Origin: an uncultured Anaeroplasmataceae bacterium | Lineage (GTDB): Bacteria; Bacillota_I; Bacilli_A; Acholeplasmatales; Anaeroplasmataceae | NCBI GenBank assembly: GCA_949840955.1 | Contig: CATKXV010000001.1 | Coordinates: forward strand, 310,001-374,000 | Direction of reading: 5' to 3' | DNA: 64,000 bases | Part shown: positions 33,791-42,707 of the stretch, piece after piece | How the letters are laid out: each line of letters starts with the position of its first letter | How positions within the stretch are numbered: the first letter of the stretch is position 1 | Program-made: the position numbers and the translations under genes | The notes under the pieces: model-generated | What the model saw: the letters and a program-made list of their open reading frames with translations, nothing else | The model's database searches: none | What the model was told of the DNA's origin: nothing

Positions 33791-33819
33791 ATTATATAAA
33801 TTTAATTTTAGTTTGTCAA
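33791..33819 (-). promoter_or_regulatory. Consensus promoter of the LysR-rluA operon
   Basis: Minus-strand TTGACA (33819-33814), exactly 17 bases, TATAAT (33796-33791): a full-consensus sigma-A promoter, ending four bases from the mraY stop codon. Confidence 0.85.
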
Positions 33820-33822
33820 TAC

Positions 33823-34752
33823 TTAAATGAGCATTAATCCAAGAACGACAAAGGCAATTTGAAAAAGATAAAACAATAGATCGATTTGAATTTCCTTTAA
33901 GCCACAGGCTTCCAAATGATGATGAAAGGGTGCCATCTTGAAAAGACGCTTGCCTTTTGTTTTTTTAAAGTATACTACCTGCATTATAACAGACAGGGTT
34001 TCAAATATAAATAAGGAGGCCATCAAAATAAAGGCTAGGATAGAATCTAAATAAATGCTTGTTATCGCATAAAAGGCTCCCAAGCCTAAGGAGCCTACAT
34101 CTCCCATGAATAAAAAAGCCTTAGGTAAATTAAAGCACCAAAAGATAAAAAGGGTAATATGAAAGGCAAGCAGTAAATAAAAAATATCCTGCTTTCCCTC
34201 TTTTAAAGCGATTGCTGCAAGACCTATGCCAAAAATAATACTACATCCAGAGCAGAGTCCATCAACCCCATCCATCAAATTCCATGCATTGGAGCTTGAT
34301 ACCAATAGCCATAGAATAATCAGTCCAAAGAACCATTTCAGATTGATGGATCTTCCAAACAAGTCTATGGTTGTACTTTGGCTATCCTTTAAATAAAAGA
34401 AAAATACAATTCCCGCAATTAGAATCTCAACCACCAGCTTTAAGGAAGCAGGCAGACCATCGTTTTTCTTAAGGATAACAATGAGCAAATCATCTAGTAT
34501 CCCTAATATACCAAATCCTAAGGTCGCAAAGATAATCATGCGGACCTCCTTTGTATATGGGATAAAAAAAAGAGGCAGTACTAAGAAAATAATACCACCC
34601 ATTGTAATTGTTCCATTCTTCTTTTTGTGAGATTCTAGTCCCAAAGAGCGTTCTGTTTGAGAAAGCCTTCTAAAGCATTTCACATACAGGCTATAGCAAA
34701 AGCAGGATACTAAGGATAAAATTAAAAGCTTAATGCAACTGAATCCAATCAT
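33823..34752 (-). CDS. mraY: Phospho-MurNAc-pentapeptide transferase MraY
   Basis: 309 residues, ten predicted transmembrane helices. It transfers phospho-MurNAc-pentapeptide to undecaprenyl phosphate, making lipid I. Diagnostic motifs: GILDD (first Asp pair), NLMDGVDGL, FMGDVGSLGLG and MAPFHHHLE. The N-terminus is typical, with GGIIFL in the first helix pair. GGAGGT lies five bases before the ATG. It overlaps the murE end by 23 bases. Confidence 0.96.
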   Translation of the reverse strand: MIGFSCIKLLILSLVSCFCYSLYVKCFRRLSQTERSLGLESHKKKNGTITMGGIIFLVLPLFFIPYTKEVRMIIFATLGFGILGILDDLLIVILKKNDGLPASLKLVVEILIAGIVFFFYLKDSQSTTIDLFGRSINLKWFFGLIILWLLVSSSNAWNLMDGVDGLCSGCSIIFGIGLAAIALKEGKQDIFYLLLAFHITLFIFWCFNLPKAFLFMGDVGSLGLGAFYAITSIYLDSILAFILMASLFIFETLSVIMQVVYFKKTKGKRLFKMAPFHHHLEACGLKEIQIDLLFYLFQIAFVVLGLMLI

Positions 34753-36154
34753 GTATGACCTCCATATCAGAATATGGATATTTCACACCTCTTATATCCA
34801 TATAATTTTCACAGCCCTTACCTAAAACAAGTAAATAATCATTGGTAGATAAATTCTTTAAGGCCACTTCTATGGCTTTCCTTCGATCTGGTATGACCAA
34901 AACCTCTTTCGTAAGATTGGCTTGGATATCCTGCAAAATTGCATTGGGATCCTCAAATCTTGGGTTATCGGTGGTTAAAATGATTTGAGCCGAAATCTCA
35001 TTTAGCAGGCTTCCAATCATAAACCTTTTTTCCTTTTCTCTGTTTCCTCCACAGCCTAAGACGATATGAAGTTTTCCCTTACATAGCTTAAGCCCTTCCT
35101 CTATTACTCTTTTTGTAGCCTGATAGGTATGGGCATAGTCAATGATAATATGCTTATTTTGGAAGGAAATGTGATTCATTCGTCCAGAAACACTTTCAAA
35201 GTGGGATAAAAATTCCTTAAAGCTTTCTACTGGTATTTTAAATATGTCACATAAGGATAAAATCGCTAAAGCATTGTAAACATTAAACTCTCCAAGAAGC
35301 TTAGATTGAAACAGGATATCTCTAGCATAAAAGGAAATCCCTTGCTCTGTTATGGTATTTAAGGTTGCCAAAAAATCCCCCTTGTTTACGCATCCATAGG
35401 TTACAATTTTAGCATCACAATACTTTGAAATGGTCTTATAGGCCTTATCATCCATATTCAATACAGCGTATGCATTCCTCTTTAGTTTTATGAAAGGAAT
35501 CAATTTACAATATAAATACTTTTCCATTGTCTTATGGTAATCCAAATGATCCTGACTAAAATTTGTAAAAATCAAGGTATGGAAGGTTAAGCCATAAACA
35601 CGGTATTGATCCACAGCTATACTGGATATTTCCATGAAAACATAGGAAATATGCTTTCTTTTTGCCAAGGATAAATATTGATAAATGGTAAGAATATCTG
35701 GAGTTGTATTATAGATTCTAGCCTCATAGCCTGTAAAAAATACACCATTTGAGCCGATGAGCATACTTCTACGCTGGATGGAATTGAAAAAGGAATATCC
35801 TATGCTTGAGGTGGTTGTTTTCCCATTTGTTCCAATGACACCAATTAAGCAGATTTTTTTTGATACATCCTTATAGAAGATCTTCGCAAGAAGGGAAAGT
35901 ACTTTGCGAGTATCCTCAACCATAATATAATTAATTCCCTCCTGCTTTTCCTCATAGGAATCAACAATTATCGTTTTAGCTCCATTATGGATGGCATCCT
36001 GTATGAAAATTTTTGCGTTGACATGATTTCCATCAATCGCAACAAAAACAGAATTCTCTATGCACTGTCTGCTATCCTGACATAGCTTATAAACATCATG
36101 ATTGATTTTCCCTTTTGGAAGCCCAGCATTTTGAAGTAAAGTATTTACCTTCAT
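34730..36154 (-). CDS. murE: UDP-MurNAc-tripeptide synthetase MurE, meso-DAP type
   Basis: 474 residues. A Mur ligase with an N-terminal UDP-binding domain, central ATPase (GTNGKTTT at 108-115, the carbamoylated-Lys region further on) and C-terminal domain (GCGGNREKEKRFMI). The amino-acid specificity loop reads TTDNPRFEDP. DNPR is the meso-diaminopimelate form, and Lys ligases lack its Arg. The peptidoglycan is therefore probably of the DAP type. The ATG at 36154 was chosen because GGTGAT precedes it by four bases. Upstream ATGs lack a site. It forms one unit with mraY. Confidence 0.94.
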   Translation of the reverse strand: MKVNTLLQNAGLPKGKINHDVYKLCQDSRQCIENSVFVAIDGNHVNAKIFIQDAIHNGAKTIIVDSYEEKQEGINYIMVEDTRKVLSLLAKIFYKDVSKKICLIGVIGTNGKTTTSSIGYSFFNSIQRRSMLIGSNGVFFTGYEARIYNTTPDILTIYQYLSLAKRKHISYVFMEISSIAVDQYRVYGLTFHTLIFTNFSQDHLDYHKTMEKYLYCKLIPFIKLKRNAYAVLNMDDKAYKTISKYCDAKIVTYGCVNKGDFLATLNTITEQGISFYARDILFQSKLLGEFNVYNALAILSLCDIFKIPVESFKEFLSHFESVSGRMNHISFQNKHIIIDYAHTYQATKRVIEEGLKLCKGKLHIVLGCGGNREKEKRFMIGSLLNEISAQIILTTDNPRFEDPNAILQDIQANLTKEVLVIPDRRKAIEVALKNLSTNDYLLVLGKGCENYMDIRGVKYPYSDMEVIHDWIQLH

Positions 36155-36228
36155 CGATATCACCATTATCATTTTATGTAATATTTTAAAAAATAATCAT
36201 ACTTTTTCATCTTTTTTAGGAGCATCTT

Positions 36229-37269
36229 CTATAGATTCTGTTTGATTTTGTAGATTTCCTTTAGGAGCTCCTCCTTACGATTTTCAACCTCCTTTCTTAG
36301 AACCCTCTGATATAGCTCCTTTAGAATAGAATCTATATCCTTTGGAGAAATATCATATTCGGCAAAATCTGCCTCCGTTAGATCTAATATTTGTTTCTTC
36401 CGTTTCCTTTGGATATAGCTTTCCTGTATTCTATCTATTTCTTTGAGTAAGAGAAAGTCTTTATGATATAAGGCAAGTGCACGTTTATAAGGAAACCAAA
36501 GCTCTAAATCCTGCTGTTTTAGGATAGATTCATCACAAGGAAGCTGAAGGAGCACTAAGGCTTGAAGAAGTGTATCCCTTTGGTCCTTTTGAATTTCAAG
36601 GATAGAAAGCCATTTTTCCTTATCCTGCTGGAAAGATAAAAAGGCTAAAATTCTTAACGGAAGGCTTTGTTTTAAAAAATCAAGCATTCTTAAAGTATCA
36701 CCACATAAAAAATACTGAGAAAAAAAGGCAGTATGCTTTAAAAAAATTTGACCTGGCTGATCGAGAGCTAGGAGGATTTTTAAATATTTTGCTAAAATAT
36801 TTGGATGAAGCGTGGGCTTTAAAAATTGCTCCTTCTTCACTTGAAAATATAGGCTAAAGCCCAAGCCATAATGATAGCATAAGGCTTTTAAATAGATTTC
36901 CTCTGTTACTGGAGCCAGTAATCGAATTCTTCGCTTTTCTACATCCTCTAGGGCGGTCTTTCCTCCAAGGATTCCATGCCTTGGATGATAGGATAAAGCT
37001 TCTATGGTAAAGGAGCACTGCTTCTGATAGGAATCAAAATCTGTTTTAAAGTGAATGGTTACTGGCTTTTGAAACAGTTTGATTCTGATTCTGTTTTGAT
37101 CTTGAATTCCATCAAAGATAAAAAATAGAGGAGCTGATGTAATGATATCATACTCCTCTATTGGTTTTTCTATTATATTGAGTAAAACAGAACGTCCAAC
37201 CAGAAAGGCTTCATAGCCCTTCTCCTCTATTTTTTTTATAATTTCTAAAACATATCCTTCAAAATTCAT
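36229..37269 (-). CDS. Degenerate class II CCA-adding-enzyme/poly(A)-polymerase homologue
   Basis: 346 residues. The overall layout recalls a tRNA nucleotidyltransferase: an N-terminal segment GYEAFLVGRSVLLN... (about 18-31), FTIEALSYHPRHGILGGKTALEDVEKRRIRLL (the FTINALAYxxxxGLxDPFGGxxDL block) and a helical C-terminal part. But the hallmark GGxVRD is replaced by GRSVLL (residues 25-30) and the DxD metal pair by EYD (39-41). No other catalytic aspartates are evident nearby, so the protein is probably inactive as a nucleotidyltransferase or acts on something else. It follows map without a gap, at the end of the T-box valS operon. An RNA-binding role is inference. Confidence 0.7.
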   Translation of the reverse strand: MNFEGYVLEIIKKIEEKGYEAFLVGRSVLLNIIEKPIEEYDIITSAPLFFIFDGIQDQNRIRIKLFQKPVTIHFKTDFDSYQKQCSFTIEALSYHPRHGILGGKTALEDVEKRRIRLLAPVTEEIYLKALCYHYGLGFSLYFQVKKEQFLKPTLHPNILAKYLKILLALDQPGQIFLKHTAFFSQYFLCGDTLRMLDFLKQSLPLRILAFLSFQQDKEKWLSILEIQKDQRDTLLQALVLLQLPCDESILKQQDLELWFPYKRALALYHKDFLLLKEIDRIQESYIQRKRKKQILDLTEADFAEYDISPKDIDSILKELYQRVLRKEVENRKEELLKEIYKIKQNL

Positions 37270-38076
37270 TTAGTGTGCTAGTATGGATATACCCTCTTCT
37301 GTTATCGCAATGGTATATTCAAATTGACTAGACCAGCCTCCATCATCTGTATATATTGTCCAGTTGTTGGATGCATCTAGGAAAACCTTTCTTGTTCCCT
37401 CATTGATCATAGGTTCTATAGTAAATACCATTCCAGGGAATAATACCATACCTGTATTTTTCTTGCCATAATGGTAGATGAACGGTTCCTCATGAAAATC
37501 TAATCCTACACCATGACCACCGATTTCATGAACTACACTGAATCCATTTCTTTTCGCATGCTGTTCTATGATATAGCCTATATCTCTTACTCTAGAGAAG
37601 GGCTTTAGATTTTTCACTGCCAAATCTAAGCACTCCTTTGAAACCTCTACAAGTCGTTTTACAATGGGGTCTACCTTTCCTATCATAAAGGTTCTTGATG
37701 CATCAGCATAGTAGCCCTTATATATAGTTGTGCAATCCACATTAATAATATCCCCATTTTTTAAAATTGTATACGGATCTGGTATTCCATGACACACAGC
37801 ATCATTTAGGCTTGTACAAACACTTTTGGGAAAGCCTTCATAATGAAGTGGAGCACAAATTCCGCCAAGCTCCTGAGTTTTTTTGGCAACCATTTGATCA
37901 ATTTGCTCTGTACTCATACCTGCATGAATATGGGCCTCAACGTAGTCTAATACCTTTGTATTGATGATTCCTGCTTCCCGAATTCCTTCAATTTGCTCCT
38001 TCGTTTTAATCATCTCTTTGGTTGGGCAGGGTACACCCAAAGCCTCATATTTTTCCTTTAATTCCTCATAGCTCAT
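37270..38076 (-). CDS. map: Methionine aminopeptidase
   Basis: 268 residues. It removes N-terminal Met from nascent proteins. The five metal ligands can be placed: Asp in NVDCT, Asp in YYADASRTF, His in IGGHGVGLDFHE, Glu in TIEPM and Glu in SQFEYT. An N-terminal extension of about 25-30 residues (KYEALGVPCPTKEMIKTKEQIEGI) precedes the catalytic domain. AGGAGAA lies about seven bases before the ATG. It overlaps folC by 11 bases. Confidence 0.96.
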   Translation of the reverse strand: MSYEELKEKYEALGVPCPTKEMIKTKEQIEGIREAGIINTKVLDYVEAHIHAGMSTEQIDQMVAKKTQELGGICAPLHYEGFPKSVCTSLNDAVCHGIPDPYTILKNGDIINVDCTTIYKGYYADASRTFMIGKVDPIVKRLVEVSKECLDLAVKNLKPFSRVRDIGYIIEQHAKRNGFSVVHEIGGHGVGLDFHEEPFIYHYGKKNTGMVLFPGMVFTIEPMINEGTRKVFLDASNNWTIYTDDGGWSSQFEYTIAITEEGISILAH

Positions 38077-39319
38077 TGGATTCTTCTCCTAACAAAAGTC
38101 TTCTTGCCTCACTCATAAAATGTAAAGAGCCTGTAATAACTAAAATTTCATTGGAATGTAATTCCTGAACTGCTGTTTTTATAGCAAGAGCATAGTCCTC
38201 ATAAAACACAAAGGGCTTTGTGGTATAAAAATCCTTAAGCTCACTAGCTCTTGCATCTAAAATGGTGGTGAAATAATAAAAGCTACTTACTCTATCTAAG
38301 GATAAAAGCATTTCATGAATGGCCTTATCTCGTAACGCAGTAAATACAAATTTTATCCTTTTTTCCTTATATTTCATCTGAAGGCTCTTCACTAATGCCT
38401 CAATTCCAGGCAAATTATGCGCTCCATCTAATATAACATTGGAGCGAACATATTCAAAGCGGGCAGGCCAAAGGGTCAAAGCTAGAGCTTGATCGATGCT
38501 TTGCTTTGGATAGCTTGGAAGAAGATATAATATGGCTTCTATGGCTAAGCTGGCATTATAGGCCTGGTAATAGCCCTCAAGATGTGCTTTATACCTTTCA
38601 TTTTTATAGGTAAAGCCCGTTCCATTGGGTAGCATTTGAATGTCACTTACATCCTCATAGATAAGCTTCATAGGAACCTGATGTTCTTGAGCATAGGAAA
38701 TAAAATAGGACTTCAATTTAGGATCTACCGTTGTAAAGCAGGGAATCCCTGGACGAGTTATCCCTAGCTTTTGAAATGCAATTTCCTCTACGGTTGAGCC
38801 TAAAGTAGCCATATGATCTAATCCAATATTGGTAATAAGAGCTACATCCTTATCTAGCCCATTGGTGGCATCCAAAAGCCCTCCTATTCCACATTCTAAT
38901 ATGAGGATATCAATCGGATTTTTTTCAAAATGGAGTAAGGCCATAAGGAGAGTCAATTCAAAAAAGGGAATGGTATCCTGATACACTTTTTGATATTGGC
39001 TCTGCAAGTCCTTCACTACCAAAAGGTATTCTAGGATTTCTTCATCCTGAATATAGGTACCATTGATTTGAATTCGCTCATTAAAGCAAATAACATAGGG
39101 AGAAACAAATAGACCTACCTTTTTTCCTGCTAGCATCAGCATTTGATTTAAATAGCTGGCTGTAGATCCCTTACCATTGGTACCAGCAATATGGATAATT
39201 TGGTAGGGTGTATGAAGATGCAGTAGCTGGATACAGGTCTTAATTCTATCCAAATTTTCTCTTTTTTTTGCTTTTTTTTGCTGATAAAGCCAATCCAAGG
39301 CCTCTTGTATTCTATTCAT
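38066..39319 (-). CDS. folC: Folylpolyglutamate synthase / dihydrofolate synthase
   Basis: 417 residues. It adds glutamates to folates (or to dihydropteroate). Mur-ligase-like fold with P-loop HIAGTNGKGSTASYL (about 40-54), DILILECGIGGLLDATN, LDHMATLGSTVEEIA and ILDGAHNLPGIEAL. It starts at TAATG on the valS stop. A folC directly after valS is the common Gram-positive order. Confidence 0.95.
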   Translation of the reverse strand: MNRIQEALDWLYQQKKAKKRENLDRIKTCIQLLHLHTPYQIIHIAGTNGKGSTASYLNQMLMLAGKKVGLFVSPYVICFNERIQINGTYIQDEEILEYLLVVKDLQSQYQKVYQDTIPFFELTLLMALLHFEKNPIDILILECGIGGLLDATNGLDKDVALITNIGLDHMATLGSTVEEIAFQKLGITRPGIPCFTTVDPKLKSYFISYAQEHQVPMKLIYEDVSDIQMLPNGTGFTYKNERYKAHLEGYYQAYNASLAIEAILYLLPSYPKQSIDQALALTLWPARFEYVRSNVILDGAHNLPGIEALVKSLQMKYKEKRIKFVFTALRDKAIHEMLLSLDRVSSFYYFTTILDARASELKDFYTTKPFVFYEDYALAIKTAVQELHSNEILVITGSLHFMSEARRLLLGEESNEL

Positions 39320-41916
39320 TATATTTCACTGATGGCTTGTAAAACAGAGGCATATTGAGCTTCATAATCTGCAAGCTTCTCCTGCTCTACTTTGATTTTT
39401 TGTTCTGGAGCTTTACTTAAAAAATTAGGATTGGAAAGCATTGCTCTAGAGCGCTTCAGCTCTCCTTCTAGCCGTGCTTTAGCCTGGTATAGCTTTTCTC
39501 TTGCTGCTTCCTTATCTACCAAATCACTAGAAGGAATATATAAGGTTGCACAGGATAAAACAAGGACTACCTTATCCTCTACGCTTTGCTCCTCTGTGGT
39601 AAGGATAAGCTCCTTAGGGTTGGTAAAGCGTAAAAGATATTTTCTTGTGGCCTCTAGTTTTTCTAGGGTAGCCTCATCCTTGCAGCAAATCCATAGACTG
39701 ATTGGAACAGATGGTGCCTTACCAGCCTTTGCACGCTCATTTCGTATGGAGGTTATGATTTCAATCAAATCATCAATGGCCTCAAGCTCTTCCTTAAATT
39801 CATATTCCTTTTCTACGGTAGGCCAGCTTGAAACCATAATAGAGGCTTCATCATGGGGTAAGGCCTGATAAAGCTCCTCTGTAATAAATGGACAGATTGG
39901 ATGAAGTAGCTTTAAAATAGCCTTTAGCACATAAACCAATACATTCTTCGTCATTTGCTGATTTTGTTGATTTTGATCGGCTAAATCTACTTTAGAAATT
40001 TCAACATACCATGAAGCAAAATCATCCCATACAAAGCCGTAAAGCTCCTTAGCTGCTTCTCCTAGCTCATATTTATCGAAATTATAGTCTACCATATGAA
40101 TGGTACGATTCAAACGAGCAAGAATGGATTTGGATGCAATATTTAAGGAGGAAATATCGATAGGGGTTGGCTTATAATCCTCACCTAAATTCATTAGAAC
40201 ATATCGTGTAATGTTCCAGATTTTATTTAAATAATTCCATGCGGCCTCTATTTTTGTTTCATCAAATCGTAAATCTAGGCCTAAGGCACCTCCTGTGGTT
40301 AAAAAGTAACGCAAGGCATCACATCCATATTGAGCAATTACATCAAAGGGATCAACACCATTTCCTAAGGACTTTGACATTTTTCTTCCATCCTTTGCTC
40401 GGATTAATCCATGAATGACAATATCCTTAAATGGCGCCTGATGGGTAAATTCAATCCCCTCAAATAGCATTCTAGATACCCAAAAGAAAATAATATCATA
40501 TCCTGTAACAAGACAGCTTGTAGGGTAATATCTTTTAAAATCCTCCGTTTCCTCTGGCCATCCTAGGGTAGAAAAAGGCCATAGGGCTGAGGAAAACCAT
40601 GTATCTAATACATCCTCATCCTGATGCCAATCTGCACCAGGAGATTCTACCTGTACCTTAACCTCATCATCCTTATACCATGCAGGAATTCTATGTCCCC
40701 ACCAAAGCTGTCTAGAGATACACCAATCCTGAATATTGGTTAGCCAATGATGGAGGGTTTGCGTAAATCTTTCAGGAACAAAGCGATATTCCTTATTTTC
40801 AAGCACCTGCTTCGCAAGAATATCCATTTTCACAAACCACTGCTTTGATAGCCTTGGTTCAACGATAACTCCTGTTCTTTCACTATGACCTACAGAATGG
40901 ATTATCGTTTCCTTTTTGATAAACAATCCTTCCTTTGTCAAATCCTTGAGTAAGGCCTCTCTACAATCAAAGCGATCCAAGCCCTCATATTTTCCTGCCA
41001 TTGCATTCATTGTTCCATCATCATTCATACATAGGGGCATCGCTAGGCTATGACGAATACCAACCTCATAATCATTAGGATCATGTGCTGGAGTTACCTT
41101 AACACAGCCTGTTCCAAATTCCATATCTACATAGCGATCTGCAATTACTGGAATTTGAATTTCTGTTCCAGGAATATAAACTGCTTTCCCAATGATAGAC
41201 TTATATCGCTCATCCTCAGGATGAACCATAACTGCCTGGTCTGCAAACATGGTTTCGGGTCTTGTTGTTGCAATCTCAACTGCTCCTGTACCATCTACAA
41301 AGGGATATTTGAAATAATAAAATGCTCCCTCAACATCCTTATGCTCAACTTCTATATTGGATAAAGCGGTACGAGCCTCAGGATCCCAATTGATGATTCG
41401 TTTTCCCTGATAAATGTATCCCTTCTTATAAAGCGTAACAAAGACATGATTGACAGCCTTATTTAATTGCTCATCTAAGGTAAAGCGTTCCTTTGTATAA
41501 TCTAGACTCAAGCCTAAGGCAGCCCATTGCTTACGGATGGTTTCGGCATACTCCTTTTTCCACTGCCAAGCAATCTTTAAAAACTCCTCTCGACCAATAT
41601 CATATCGAGATATCCCCTGCTGCTTTAATTTTTCATCTACCTTAGCCTGAGTTGCTATTCCAGCATGATCCATTCCTGGTAGCCAAAGCGTATCAAAGCC
41701 CTGCATTCTTTTTCTTCGAACAATGACATCCTGAATGGAAGTATCACAGGCATGTCCTAAATGAAGCTTTCCTGTTACATTAGGTGGTGGAATTACAATG
41801 GTAAAGGGCTCCTTGGATTTATCTCCTGAGGTAAAAAAGCCCCCCTTTAGCCAAAAGTCATATTTTCCCTCTTCTACTTTTTTAAAATTATATTTTGTTT
41901 CTAGTTCCTTACTCAT
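39319..41916 (-). CDS. valS: Valyl-tRNA synthetase
   Basis: 865 residues, class I. HIGH motif in PNVTGKLHLGHA (about 46-57), KMSKS in GRKMSKSLGNGVDP (about 520), the editing domain in TTRPETMFADQAV, and a coiled-coil C-terminal arm (KARLEGELKRSRAML). It charges tRNA-Val. It overlaps the GNAT gene by eight bases and lies under a T-box whose specifier reads GUA (Val). Confidence 0.98.
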   Translation of the reverse strand: MSKELETKYNFKKVEEGKYDFWLKGGFFTSGDKSKEPFTIVIPPPNVTGKLHLGHACDTSIQDVIVRRKRMQGFDTLWLPGMDHAGIATQAKVDEKLKQQGISRYDIGREEFLKIAWQWKKEYAETIRKQWAALGLSLDYTKERFTLDEQLNKAVNHVFVTLYKKGYIYQGKRIINWDPEARTALSNIEVEHKDVEGAFYYFKYPFVDGTGAVEIATTRPETMFADQAVMVHPEDERYKSIIGKAVYIPGTEIQIPVIADRYVDMEFGTGCVKVTPAHDPNDYEVGIRHSLAMPLCMNDDGTMNAMAGKYEGLDRFDCREALLKDLTKEGLFIKKETIIHSVGHSERTGVIVEPRLSKQWFVKMDILAKQVLENKEYRFVPERFTQTLHHWLTNIQDWCISRQLWWGHRIPAWYKDDEVKVQVESPGADWHQDEDVLDTWFSSALWPFSTLGWPEETEDFKRYYPTSCLVTGYDIIFFWVSRMLFEGIEFTHQAPFKDIVIHGLIRAKDGRKMSKSLGNGVDPFDVIAQYGCDALRYFLTTGGALGLDLRFDETKIEAAWNYLNKIWNITRYVLMNLGEDYKPTPIDISSLNIASKSILARLNRTIHMVDYNFDKYELGEAAKELYGFVWDDFASWYVEISKVDLADQNQQNQQMTKNVLVYVLKAILKLLHPICPFITEELYQALPHDEASIMVSSWPTVEKEYEFKEELEAIDDLIEIITSIRNERAKAGKAPSVPISLWICCKDEATLEKLEATRKYLLRFTNPKELILTTEEQSVEDKVVLVLSCATLYIPSSDLVDKEAAREKLYQAKARLEGELKRSRAMLSNPNFLSKAPEQKIKVEQEKLADYEAQYASVLQAISEI

Positions 41917-42469: not shown

Positions 42470-42700
42470 ATAAAAAAAATCCTTAGATTTCTCTAAGGAC
42501 GAAATGACTCGTGGTACCACCCTAGTTCTATATTTCTATAGCACTCATTATTGGTTAACGCCCAACCTACGAAATAAACTACTTAAGCTTTCATCTATTT
42601 GGCTTCCTAGCTACCTTCAGTATCCTTGTCATAAAATCCTTTCACCCTTTGGATTTCTCTCTAAATGAAATCAATACCTACTCCTCTAGTTCATCGCCTA
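42470..42700 (-). promoter_or_regulatory. T-box riboswitch, Val specifier, controlling GNAT-valS-folC
   Basis: Read on the minus strand from about 42700: stem I elements GATGAACTAGAGGAGTAG and AGAGAGAAATCC...GGGTGAAAGG, then GAAGGTAGC with the probable specifier GTA at 42614-42612 (Val, followed by G), and the T-box AGGGTGGTACCACG (about 42511-42524). Stem AGTCATTTCGTCC follows, then the terminator CCTTAGA/TCTAAGG (42481-42495) with eight T. Uncharged tRNA-Val should favour the antiterminator and read-through into the valS operon. Confidence 0.92.
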
Positions 42701-42707
42701 TGCTAAA

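Follow-up and report, generated by a model that had tools for sequence, protein, structure and literature searches.

What can keep a gene in place once the enzyme it encodes has lost its catalytic motifs? The question is raised by an open reading frame, here termed X, in a stretch of 64,000 nucleotides from an uncultured Anaeroplasmataceae bacterium (the window). The original prediction, made from the letters of the window, had placed X at 36229-37269, and this position is exact. The strand, absent from that prediction, is minus; the plus-strand reading contains 33 stops. On the basis of the open reading frame, a profile match, motifs and a predicted fold, the 346-residue product is assigned as a catalytically dead homologue of class II tRNA nucleotidyltransferases. 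It is a clear example of catalytic motifs being lost from one member of an enzyme family that is universal and essential, while the gene itself is retained.

As had been claimed, X directly follows map (37270..38076, minus), a type I methionyl aminopeptidase gene identified by reading frame and family match. The stop codon of map is fused to the start codon of X (TAA|ATG, 37267..37272, minus), and the same stop|ATG junction is found in the nine genus genomes that show it. Further upstream in the run lie folC (38066-39319, minus; TIGR01499) and valS (39319-41916, minus; named from its sequence), preceded by a T-box leader (42492..42703, minus) with a promoter-like site at 42736-42708. A T-box thus heads the run as predicted; its label “Val” is based on the presence of valS downstream. 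On the other side of X are murE (34730..36172, minus) and mraY (33823..34752, minus), both assigned by reading frame and family match, the start of mraY overlapping the end of murE. A perfect TTGACA-17-TATAAT promoter-like site (33791-33819, minus) before a LysR-type gene suggests that a new transcription unit may begin after mraY. Neither promoter-like sites (35 versus 40.1 in shuffles) nor terminator-like sites (8 versus 8.2 expected from shuffles) were enriched in generic scans.

Fold, catalytic motifs and origin of X

All of the motifs quoted in the original prediction are present in X, namely GRSVLL at the GGxVRD site (the usual name of this motif), EYD at DxD, FTIEALSY and ILGGKTALEDVEKRRIRLL. 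The proposed descent from class II nucleotidyltransferases is beyond chance by the match to the NCBIfam CCA model NF009814 (E 4.8e-10, although its 39 bits fall short of the cut-off of 290) and is settled by the predicted fold. Pfam gave no match to X up to E 10, the gathering cut-off of PF01743 (PolyA_pol head) not being reached; the separate cca of the same genome scores 117.7 bits for this model (cut-off 23). A PDB sequence search with X returned a single match, 1miv, at E 0.14. The AlphaFold2 model, calculated with seven genus sequences as input, reached a pLDDT of 85.8 and a pTM of 0.74. Foldseek comparison of this model with the PDB provided 46 matches at E <= 0.001, headed by 1miv (E 5.1e-10) and titled CCA-adding enzyme, tRNA nucleotidyltransferase, tRNA-processing enzyme or “bacterial protein” (3aqk/3aql/3aqm, which we take to be E. 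coli PcnB). In VIA-align, the model was superposed on 1miv with Z 21.7 over 342 residues (6.1 Å, 16% identity) and on 3wfp_B with Z 21.9 over 327 residues (4.7 Å). X is thus predicted to adopt the full class II fold, and the different fold that would have contradicted the original prediction was ruled out by both structural comparisons. The likeness to 1miv-type CCA-adding enzymes extends across the full length of the model; conversely, X lacks their GG..RD, intact DxD, third carboxylate, RRD and EDxxR.

Class II enzymes rely on three carboxylates, and DxD supplies two of them (PMC3925840). We compared six X sequences with 22 HD-type and ten cca rows. As the HD-type and cca rows were chosen by the pattern GG..R[DN], this motif provides no independent count, and the map-linked protein of G067 was left out of the table and of the tree (see below) because GG was required; it has GD and keeps VRD, DxD, RD and HD. 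In all six genus members with head and body, the second Gly and the Arg of GGxVRD are altered, RRD has become xC[S/C/A/H] and EDxxR is absent. The DxD site reads E-Y-D in four, E-Y-R in one and E-Y-E in one of the six. DxD and the RD of RRD are retained throughout the HD-type (22/22) and cca (10/10) rows. The column of the third carboxylate, Glu in 11/11 HD-type rows, holds T/H/R/H/K/L in X, or R/H/H/H/gap/A in another alignment. The seventh head sequence, from G002, shows the same motif loss, with EYD. Of the catalytic and HD positions that do not vary among the 11 map-linked HD-type rows, only two persist in some X sequences, namely the second Asp of DxD (4/6) and the HD Asp (1/6); the second Gly, the Arg, the first Asp, the Glu, the Arg-Asp, the Asn and the HD His are all lost. 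Structural positions such as G25, A46, F183 and R206 are retained.

The loss of catalysis in X is accordingly well supported at the level of motifs. An intact cca, which the original prediction had suggested looking for, is present elsewhere in the genome, which rules out that cca is lacking there; across the genus a motif-bearing cca was found in 10 of the 11 genomes (not in G002, which is 72% complete). CCA addition probably depends on this separate gene. Close relatives share the loss rather than showing a normal GGxVRD/DxD pattern. As it is common to the window and five other species, with dN/dS below 1 in the closer pairs (see below), neither a sequencing error nor a recent pseudogene can account for it. 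Searches of the open-access PMC library listed no paper that names an inactive bacterial class II tRNA nucleotidyltransferase.

A motif-bearing relative still occupies the same place in the gene order of a sister genus, g6. The same map lies directly upstream in 12 of the 23 HD-type loci examined there, and all 12 genomes with a map-linked HD-type gene contain a second nucleotidyltransferase; G021, G031, G033 and G035 have no HD-type gene after map within the sequence stretch inspected. In the tree, which also omitted G002 (split over two contigs) and the partial G001, X and 11 map-linked HD-type proteins fall on one side of a branch with 100/100 support, X having a long stem of 1.45. Grouping X with the non-HD cca proteins is 9.5 log units worse and not rejected by the AU test (p 0.217); the HD-type origin is preferred on account of the gene order and of a match between the C-terminus of X and the region that follows HD in the HD-type enzymes. 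The distance from the third carboxylate to RRD is 15 residues in 11/11 map-linked rows and 30 in 10/10 cca rows, and the map-linked enzymes are described as CC-adding-like because of this deletion of the flexible loop. In X the distance is 16 or 22 residues, with a column that is not surely aligned.

The map-linked HD-type enzymes (e.g. L009 and L052) thus share with X the place after map, the side of the branch and the C-terminus, whereas they keep the catalytic motifs and the HD residues. Their junctions differ as well: map and start codon are separated by 10-16 nt with a purine-rich stretch (eight loci), in contrast to the stop|ATG of X, and their genes have no hairpin in common with X (see below). 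We infer that X is a genus-specific orthologue of a map-linked, HD-type, loop-deleted class II enzyme, presumably with a CC-adding-like ancestor, and that the catalytic motifs and HD residues were probably lost before the sampled species diverged.

A hairpin and U-rich tract in the coding sequence

The most conserved stretch of X comprises codons 37-50, EEYDIITSAPLF. Pairwise identity of these residues is 0.80 in X, whereas the corresponding residues of the HD-type rows reach 0.49, and most other segments of X are no more conserved than their HD-type counterparts. In the codons ATA GAG GAG TAT ... GCT CCT CTA TTT, GAGGAG pairs with CTCCTC and is followed by T-rich codons. Alignment and RNA folding define a conserved hairpin at nt 108-146 of the reading frame (37124..37162, minus), with 13 pairs in the tested structure and a U-rich tract at its end (37114..37125, minus). 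All seven genomes that have the segment form a stem of 7-11 contiguous pairs in the same columns, and at the stem end of each of the six genomes scanned, 7-8 T are found in the best stretch of 8 nt. The sequence feature of an intrinsic terminator, a stable hairpin followed by a U-run, is therefore found in X.

Codon choice follows the stem. Its Glu codons are GAG in 13/13 cases at a GAG usage of 0.21-0.48; by contrast, GAA serves for 9/11 Glu codons at residues 15-16. Within codons 37-50, 49 of 233 same-residue codon pairs differ (median over codon windows 0.39). Synonymous recoding of the X set (n = 300) gave a best shared stem of 4 pairs compared to the observed 7, a null model that breaks shared ancestry and hence overstates significance. 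RNAalifold assigns -11.4 kcal/mol to the hairpin, and two pairs have changed on both sides, from A-U to G-C in G005 and from G-C to A-U in G002. This covariation is modest, its score being reached by 21 of 500 shuffles. Single-sequence folding gave z-scores of -4.38, -3.03, -4.34, -2.01, -3.69, -1.67 and -5.00; for two of the genomes, a fold as good as that of the hairpin was reached by 6 and 13 of 200 shuffles. The pair probability of the stem in longer context is 0.78-1.0. A covariance model, scored on the best 150 of 859 to 2190 candidates per genome, matches X in its seven source genomes (E <= 5e-14), and the next best among these candidates has E 0.007. The generic terminator scan did not list the X hairpin because the loop exceeds its limit.

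Codons 37-50 are thus constrained as RNA. While the original prediction holds with respect to the loss of nucleotide transfer, it had missed this element. Its further suggestions for the protein, retained RNA binding or a role as regulator or chaperone of tRNA, stay candidates that the data neither favour nor contradict. Most of the conservation of the segment is accounted for by pairing, which points to a possible role in cis. The 0.80 identity had also raised the idea of a new protein active site at EEYDIITSAP; this was rejected, since pairing of the RNA and the choice of codons account for most of the conservation. Still, Ile43 is kept with varying third bases, so that some protein constraint remains. 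More generally, what looks like strong conservation of a pseudoenzyme at the protein level can reflect a signal in the RNA. Three further candidates were discarded. Of ten matches to Rfam elements up to E 5, none reached its gathering score; another GAGGAG further upstream, considered as an antiterminator, is confined to the window species; and an internal Shine-Dalgarno sequence would need a start codon behind it, but none is conserved at a suitable spacing. The hairpin and U-run resemble an intrinsic terminator located 108 nt into a reading frame whose ATG abuts the map stop codon, and a terminator function may be proposed on these grounds.

For comparison, nine genes of the region were scanned for a shared stem of at least 6 pairs with at least 6 T of 8 in every genome. 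Only X and mraY contain such an element. The second conserved hairpin with T-run lies early in mraY (codon 54-55; 34563..34600, minus) and has 11 pairs in the window. It is present in 5/5 genus genomes scanned, with stems of 11, 11, 11, 11 and 7 pairs, and was also listed by the generic terminator scan; its single-sequence fold z is only -1.38. Among the four start-coupled junctions upstream of murE, an element of this kind was found only after map-X. In both genes the lowest synonymous divergence overlaps the element (windows starting at codons 37-49 in X and 46-54 in mraY). Similar minima occur in genes that contain no such hairpin (map 0.09, GNAT 0.15, valS 0.16, lysR 0.17), and thus low synonymous divergence alone proves nothing. 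The minimum of map, 0.09 compared to a median of 0.43, starts from about codon 237 (about 37326-37368), shortly before the map-X junction.

A terminator-like site near the start was absent from 7 of 9 sister-genus loci. Two related HD-type genes, L080 and L081 (from G061 and G029), show a different 14-pair stem with T-run over the GGxVRD region.

Selection on X and its distribution in the genus

Selection was quantified as dN/dS by NG86, most pairs being saturated at synonymous sites. For X in the G003-G009 pair, dN is 0.257 and dS 0.999, corresponding to a dN/dS of 0.257 (bootstrap 0.18-0.34); the neighbours folC and map give 0.134 and 0.044. Differences at the three codon positions of X amount to 0.28, 0.16 and 0.40, and the wrong frames yield dN/dS values of 0.43 to 1.68. 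Five sub-segments of X in the same pair have point estimates of 0.17-0.34, all below 1, with upper bounds up to 0.74. Across eight closer pairs, dN/dS is 0.20-0.39 with bootstrap upper bounds of 0.34-0.54; it rises up to 0.83 in distant, synonymously saturated pairs. X encodes a folded protein under moderate purifying selection, about twice as loose as that on folC.

Seven of the 11 genus genomes (G000, G002, G003, G005, G006, G009, G010) contain an X with both head and body or, in the case of G002, an X divided between two contigs. The five other head-and-body members show 27-36% identity to the X of the window, compared to 81-88% for map, and the frame is open over at least 305 codons in 6/6. 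The proteins of G006 and G010 are shorter at the end by about 60 residues; a decayed tail remnant past the G006 stop was seen by eye, gave no tblastn match and is not claimed. In G001, only the C-terminal part is present, starting from the same ATG directly after map and running off the contig. The whole catalytic head is absent, and the region behind the head is therefore the only part common to every sufficiently sequenced member. The X hairpin is likewise absent from G001; the early part of its X (L049 454-2) contains AGGATC...GATCCT followed by T's, too weak to claim. In G007 a contig end leaves only the first nine codons, and both X and this map are missing from G004 and G008. A contig search with the window protein alone returned no X loci. 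The same search with the alignment returned six (Anaeroplasma bactoclasticum, Anaeroplasmataceae, uncultured Mollicutes), which were treated as the same sequences as G003, G009, G006, G005, G002 and G010 and not as extra evidence.

A proposed attenuator and its alternatives

Work in E. coli (PMC4824070) indicates that a terminator within the first 100 bp of a coding region can be efficient and that termination increases with distance from the upstream gene; silenced translation altered an early-ORF terminator by only about 10%. Rho was not found at cut-off in G000 (97% complete), where the best match reached 40 of 509 bits; 8 of 14 control genomes exceed the cut-off with the same model. Weak matches at C4:111385-112125 of G000 are probably related ATPases. 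Based on the stop|ATG junction, the hairpin 108 nt into the frame, the E. coli data and the missing Rho match, we propose a partial terminator between valS-folC-map and murE-mraY that is probably translation-sensitive. X would then be a non-catalytic protein whose gene start doubles as an attenuator for murE-mraY, a reading to which we assign a probability of about 0.5.

Two reasons for the persistence of X would be combined in this way. A folded protein is still encoded, its role most simply being RNA or protein binding, and the hairpin with U-run in the first 150 nt could act as a partial intrinsic terminator. As there is no spacing between map and X, translation of X would probably rely on re-initiation by ribosomes leaving map. 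With poor re-initiation the hairpin could form and part of transcription would end there, lowering murE-mraY relative to valS-folC-map; with a ribosome close behind RNA polymerase, transcription would continue. Gating by the ribosome is the weakest link, because the hairpin starts at nt 108, past the tested 100 bp, and because the reported effect of translation is about 10%. Species with runaway transcription, in which RNA polymerase outpaces ribosomes (PMC13323073), count against the proposal as well. So do the modest covariation, the occurrence of such an element after only one of the four start-coupled junctions upstream of murE, the lack of the hairpin in G001 and the lack of a terminator-like site near the start in most sister-genus loci. 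The arrangement resembles the intrinsic terminators inside coding regions of PMC4824070, insofar as a hairpin and U-run shortly follow an upstream stop and a start codon; it differs in that the element of X is evolutionarily conserved, lies inside the reading frame of a dead enzyme and is a putative terminator. If correct, the hairpin would explain concretely how the gene of a dead enzyme could persist, namely as a regulatory ORF, and would give operon polarity in the absence of Rho a model that can be tested.

Several other explanations have to be weighed against this. X could owe its retention to the protein alone, as a pseudoenzyme that binds tRNA or associates with the active Cca, with the hairpin being minor or incidental. 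The dN/dS point estimates of the five sub-segments, all below 1 in G003-G009, and the confident full-length model agree with this notion, and human OASL offers a precedent: an inactive nucleotidyltransferase fold kept for a non-catalytic role, the binding of dsRNA (PMC4446440). OASL belongs to another family and another domain of life, however, and RNA binding, known for OASL in that source, is no more than a candidate function in the case of X, the net charge of which is unremarkable and gives no sign of enhanced RNA binding. Moreover, the most conserved segment is largely attributable to pairing and codon choice, G001 has no head domain, and G006 and G010 end early. A purely protein-based role is therefore somewhat unlikely, albeit worth keeping in view. 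Conversely, the hairpin could be real and serve a different purpose, as an mRNA processing, stabilising or protein-binding site, e.g. an RNase target between map and murE. The letters of the loop and inner stem are conserved too (ACATC in 7/7), and 6 of the 13 pairs never vary; with so little variation, pairing and sequence conservation are not fully separable. Against such a site stand the U-rich tract at the stem end in the 6/6 genomes scanned, as in intrinsic terminators, and the second element of this kind early in mraY; we regard it as unlikely.

Fast evolution (27-36% identity, in contrast to 81-88% for map), the loss of head or tail in single lineages, the joint absence of X and this map in G004 and G008, and dN/dS up to 0.83 in distant saturated pairs would all be expected of a functionless, decaying relic, retained since its disruption would be polar on murE-mraY. 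This is decidedly unlikely given the dN/dS of the eight closer pairs, the open frames in 6/6 and the specific conservation of the hairpin. Residual nucleotide transfer, or new chemistry in the old pocket around the invariant Glu39, Cys85 and His95, is highly improbable: Cys85, Tyr94 and His95 are invariant in all seven head sequences and lie outside the hairpin, but the catalytic carboxylate positions, RRD and EDxxR are altered, and G001 has no head at all.

The attenuator reading can be extended, as a speculation that we ourselves consider doubtful. Without a recognisable Rho, early intrinsic terminators in translation-coupled reading frames, i.e. those of X and mraY, might act as checkpoints that are passed only if a ribosome re-initiates. 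The dead CCA-enzyme gene would then be a cis-regulatory ORF that turns the rate of re-initiation after the T-box-led valS-folC-map into a dose of cell-wall enzymes. With regard to such enzymes, G000 contains six Mur-ligase-domain genes over cut-off, including folC and murE (contigs C1, C14, C5, C8 and C15), and three transpeptidases over cut-off (contigs C11, C6 and C9), in a relative of the wall-less genus Anaeroplasma.
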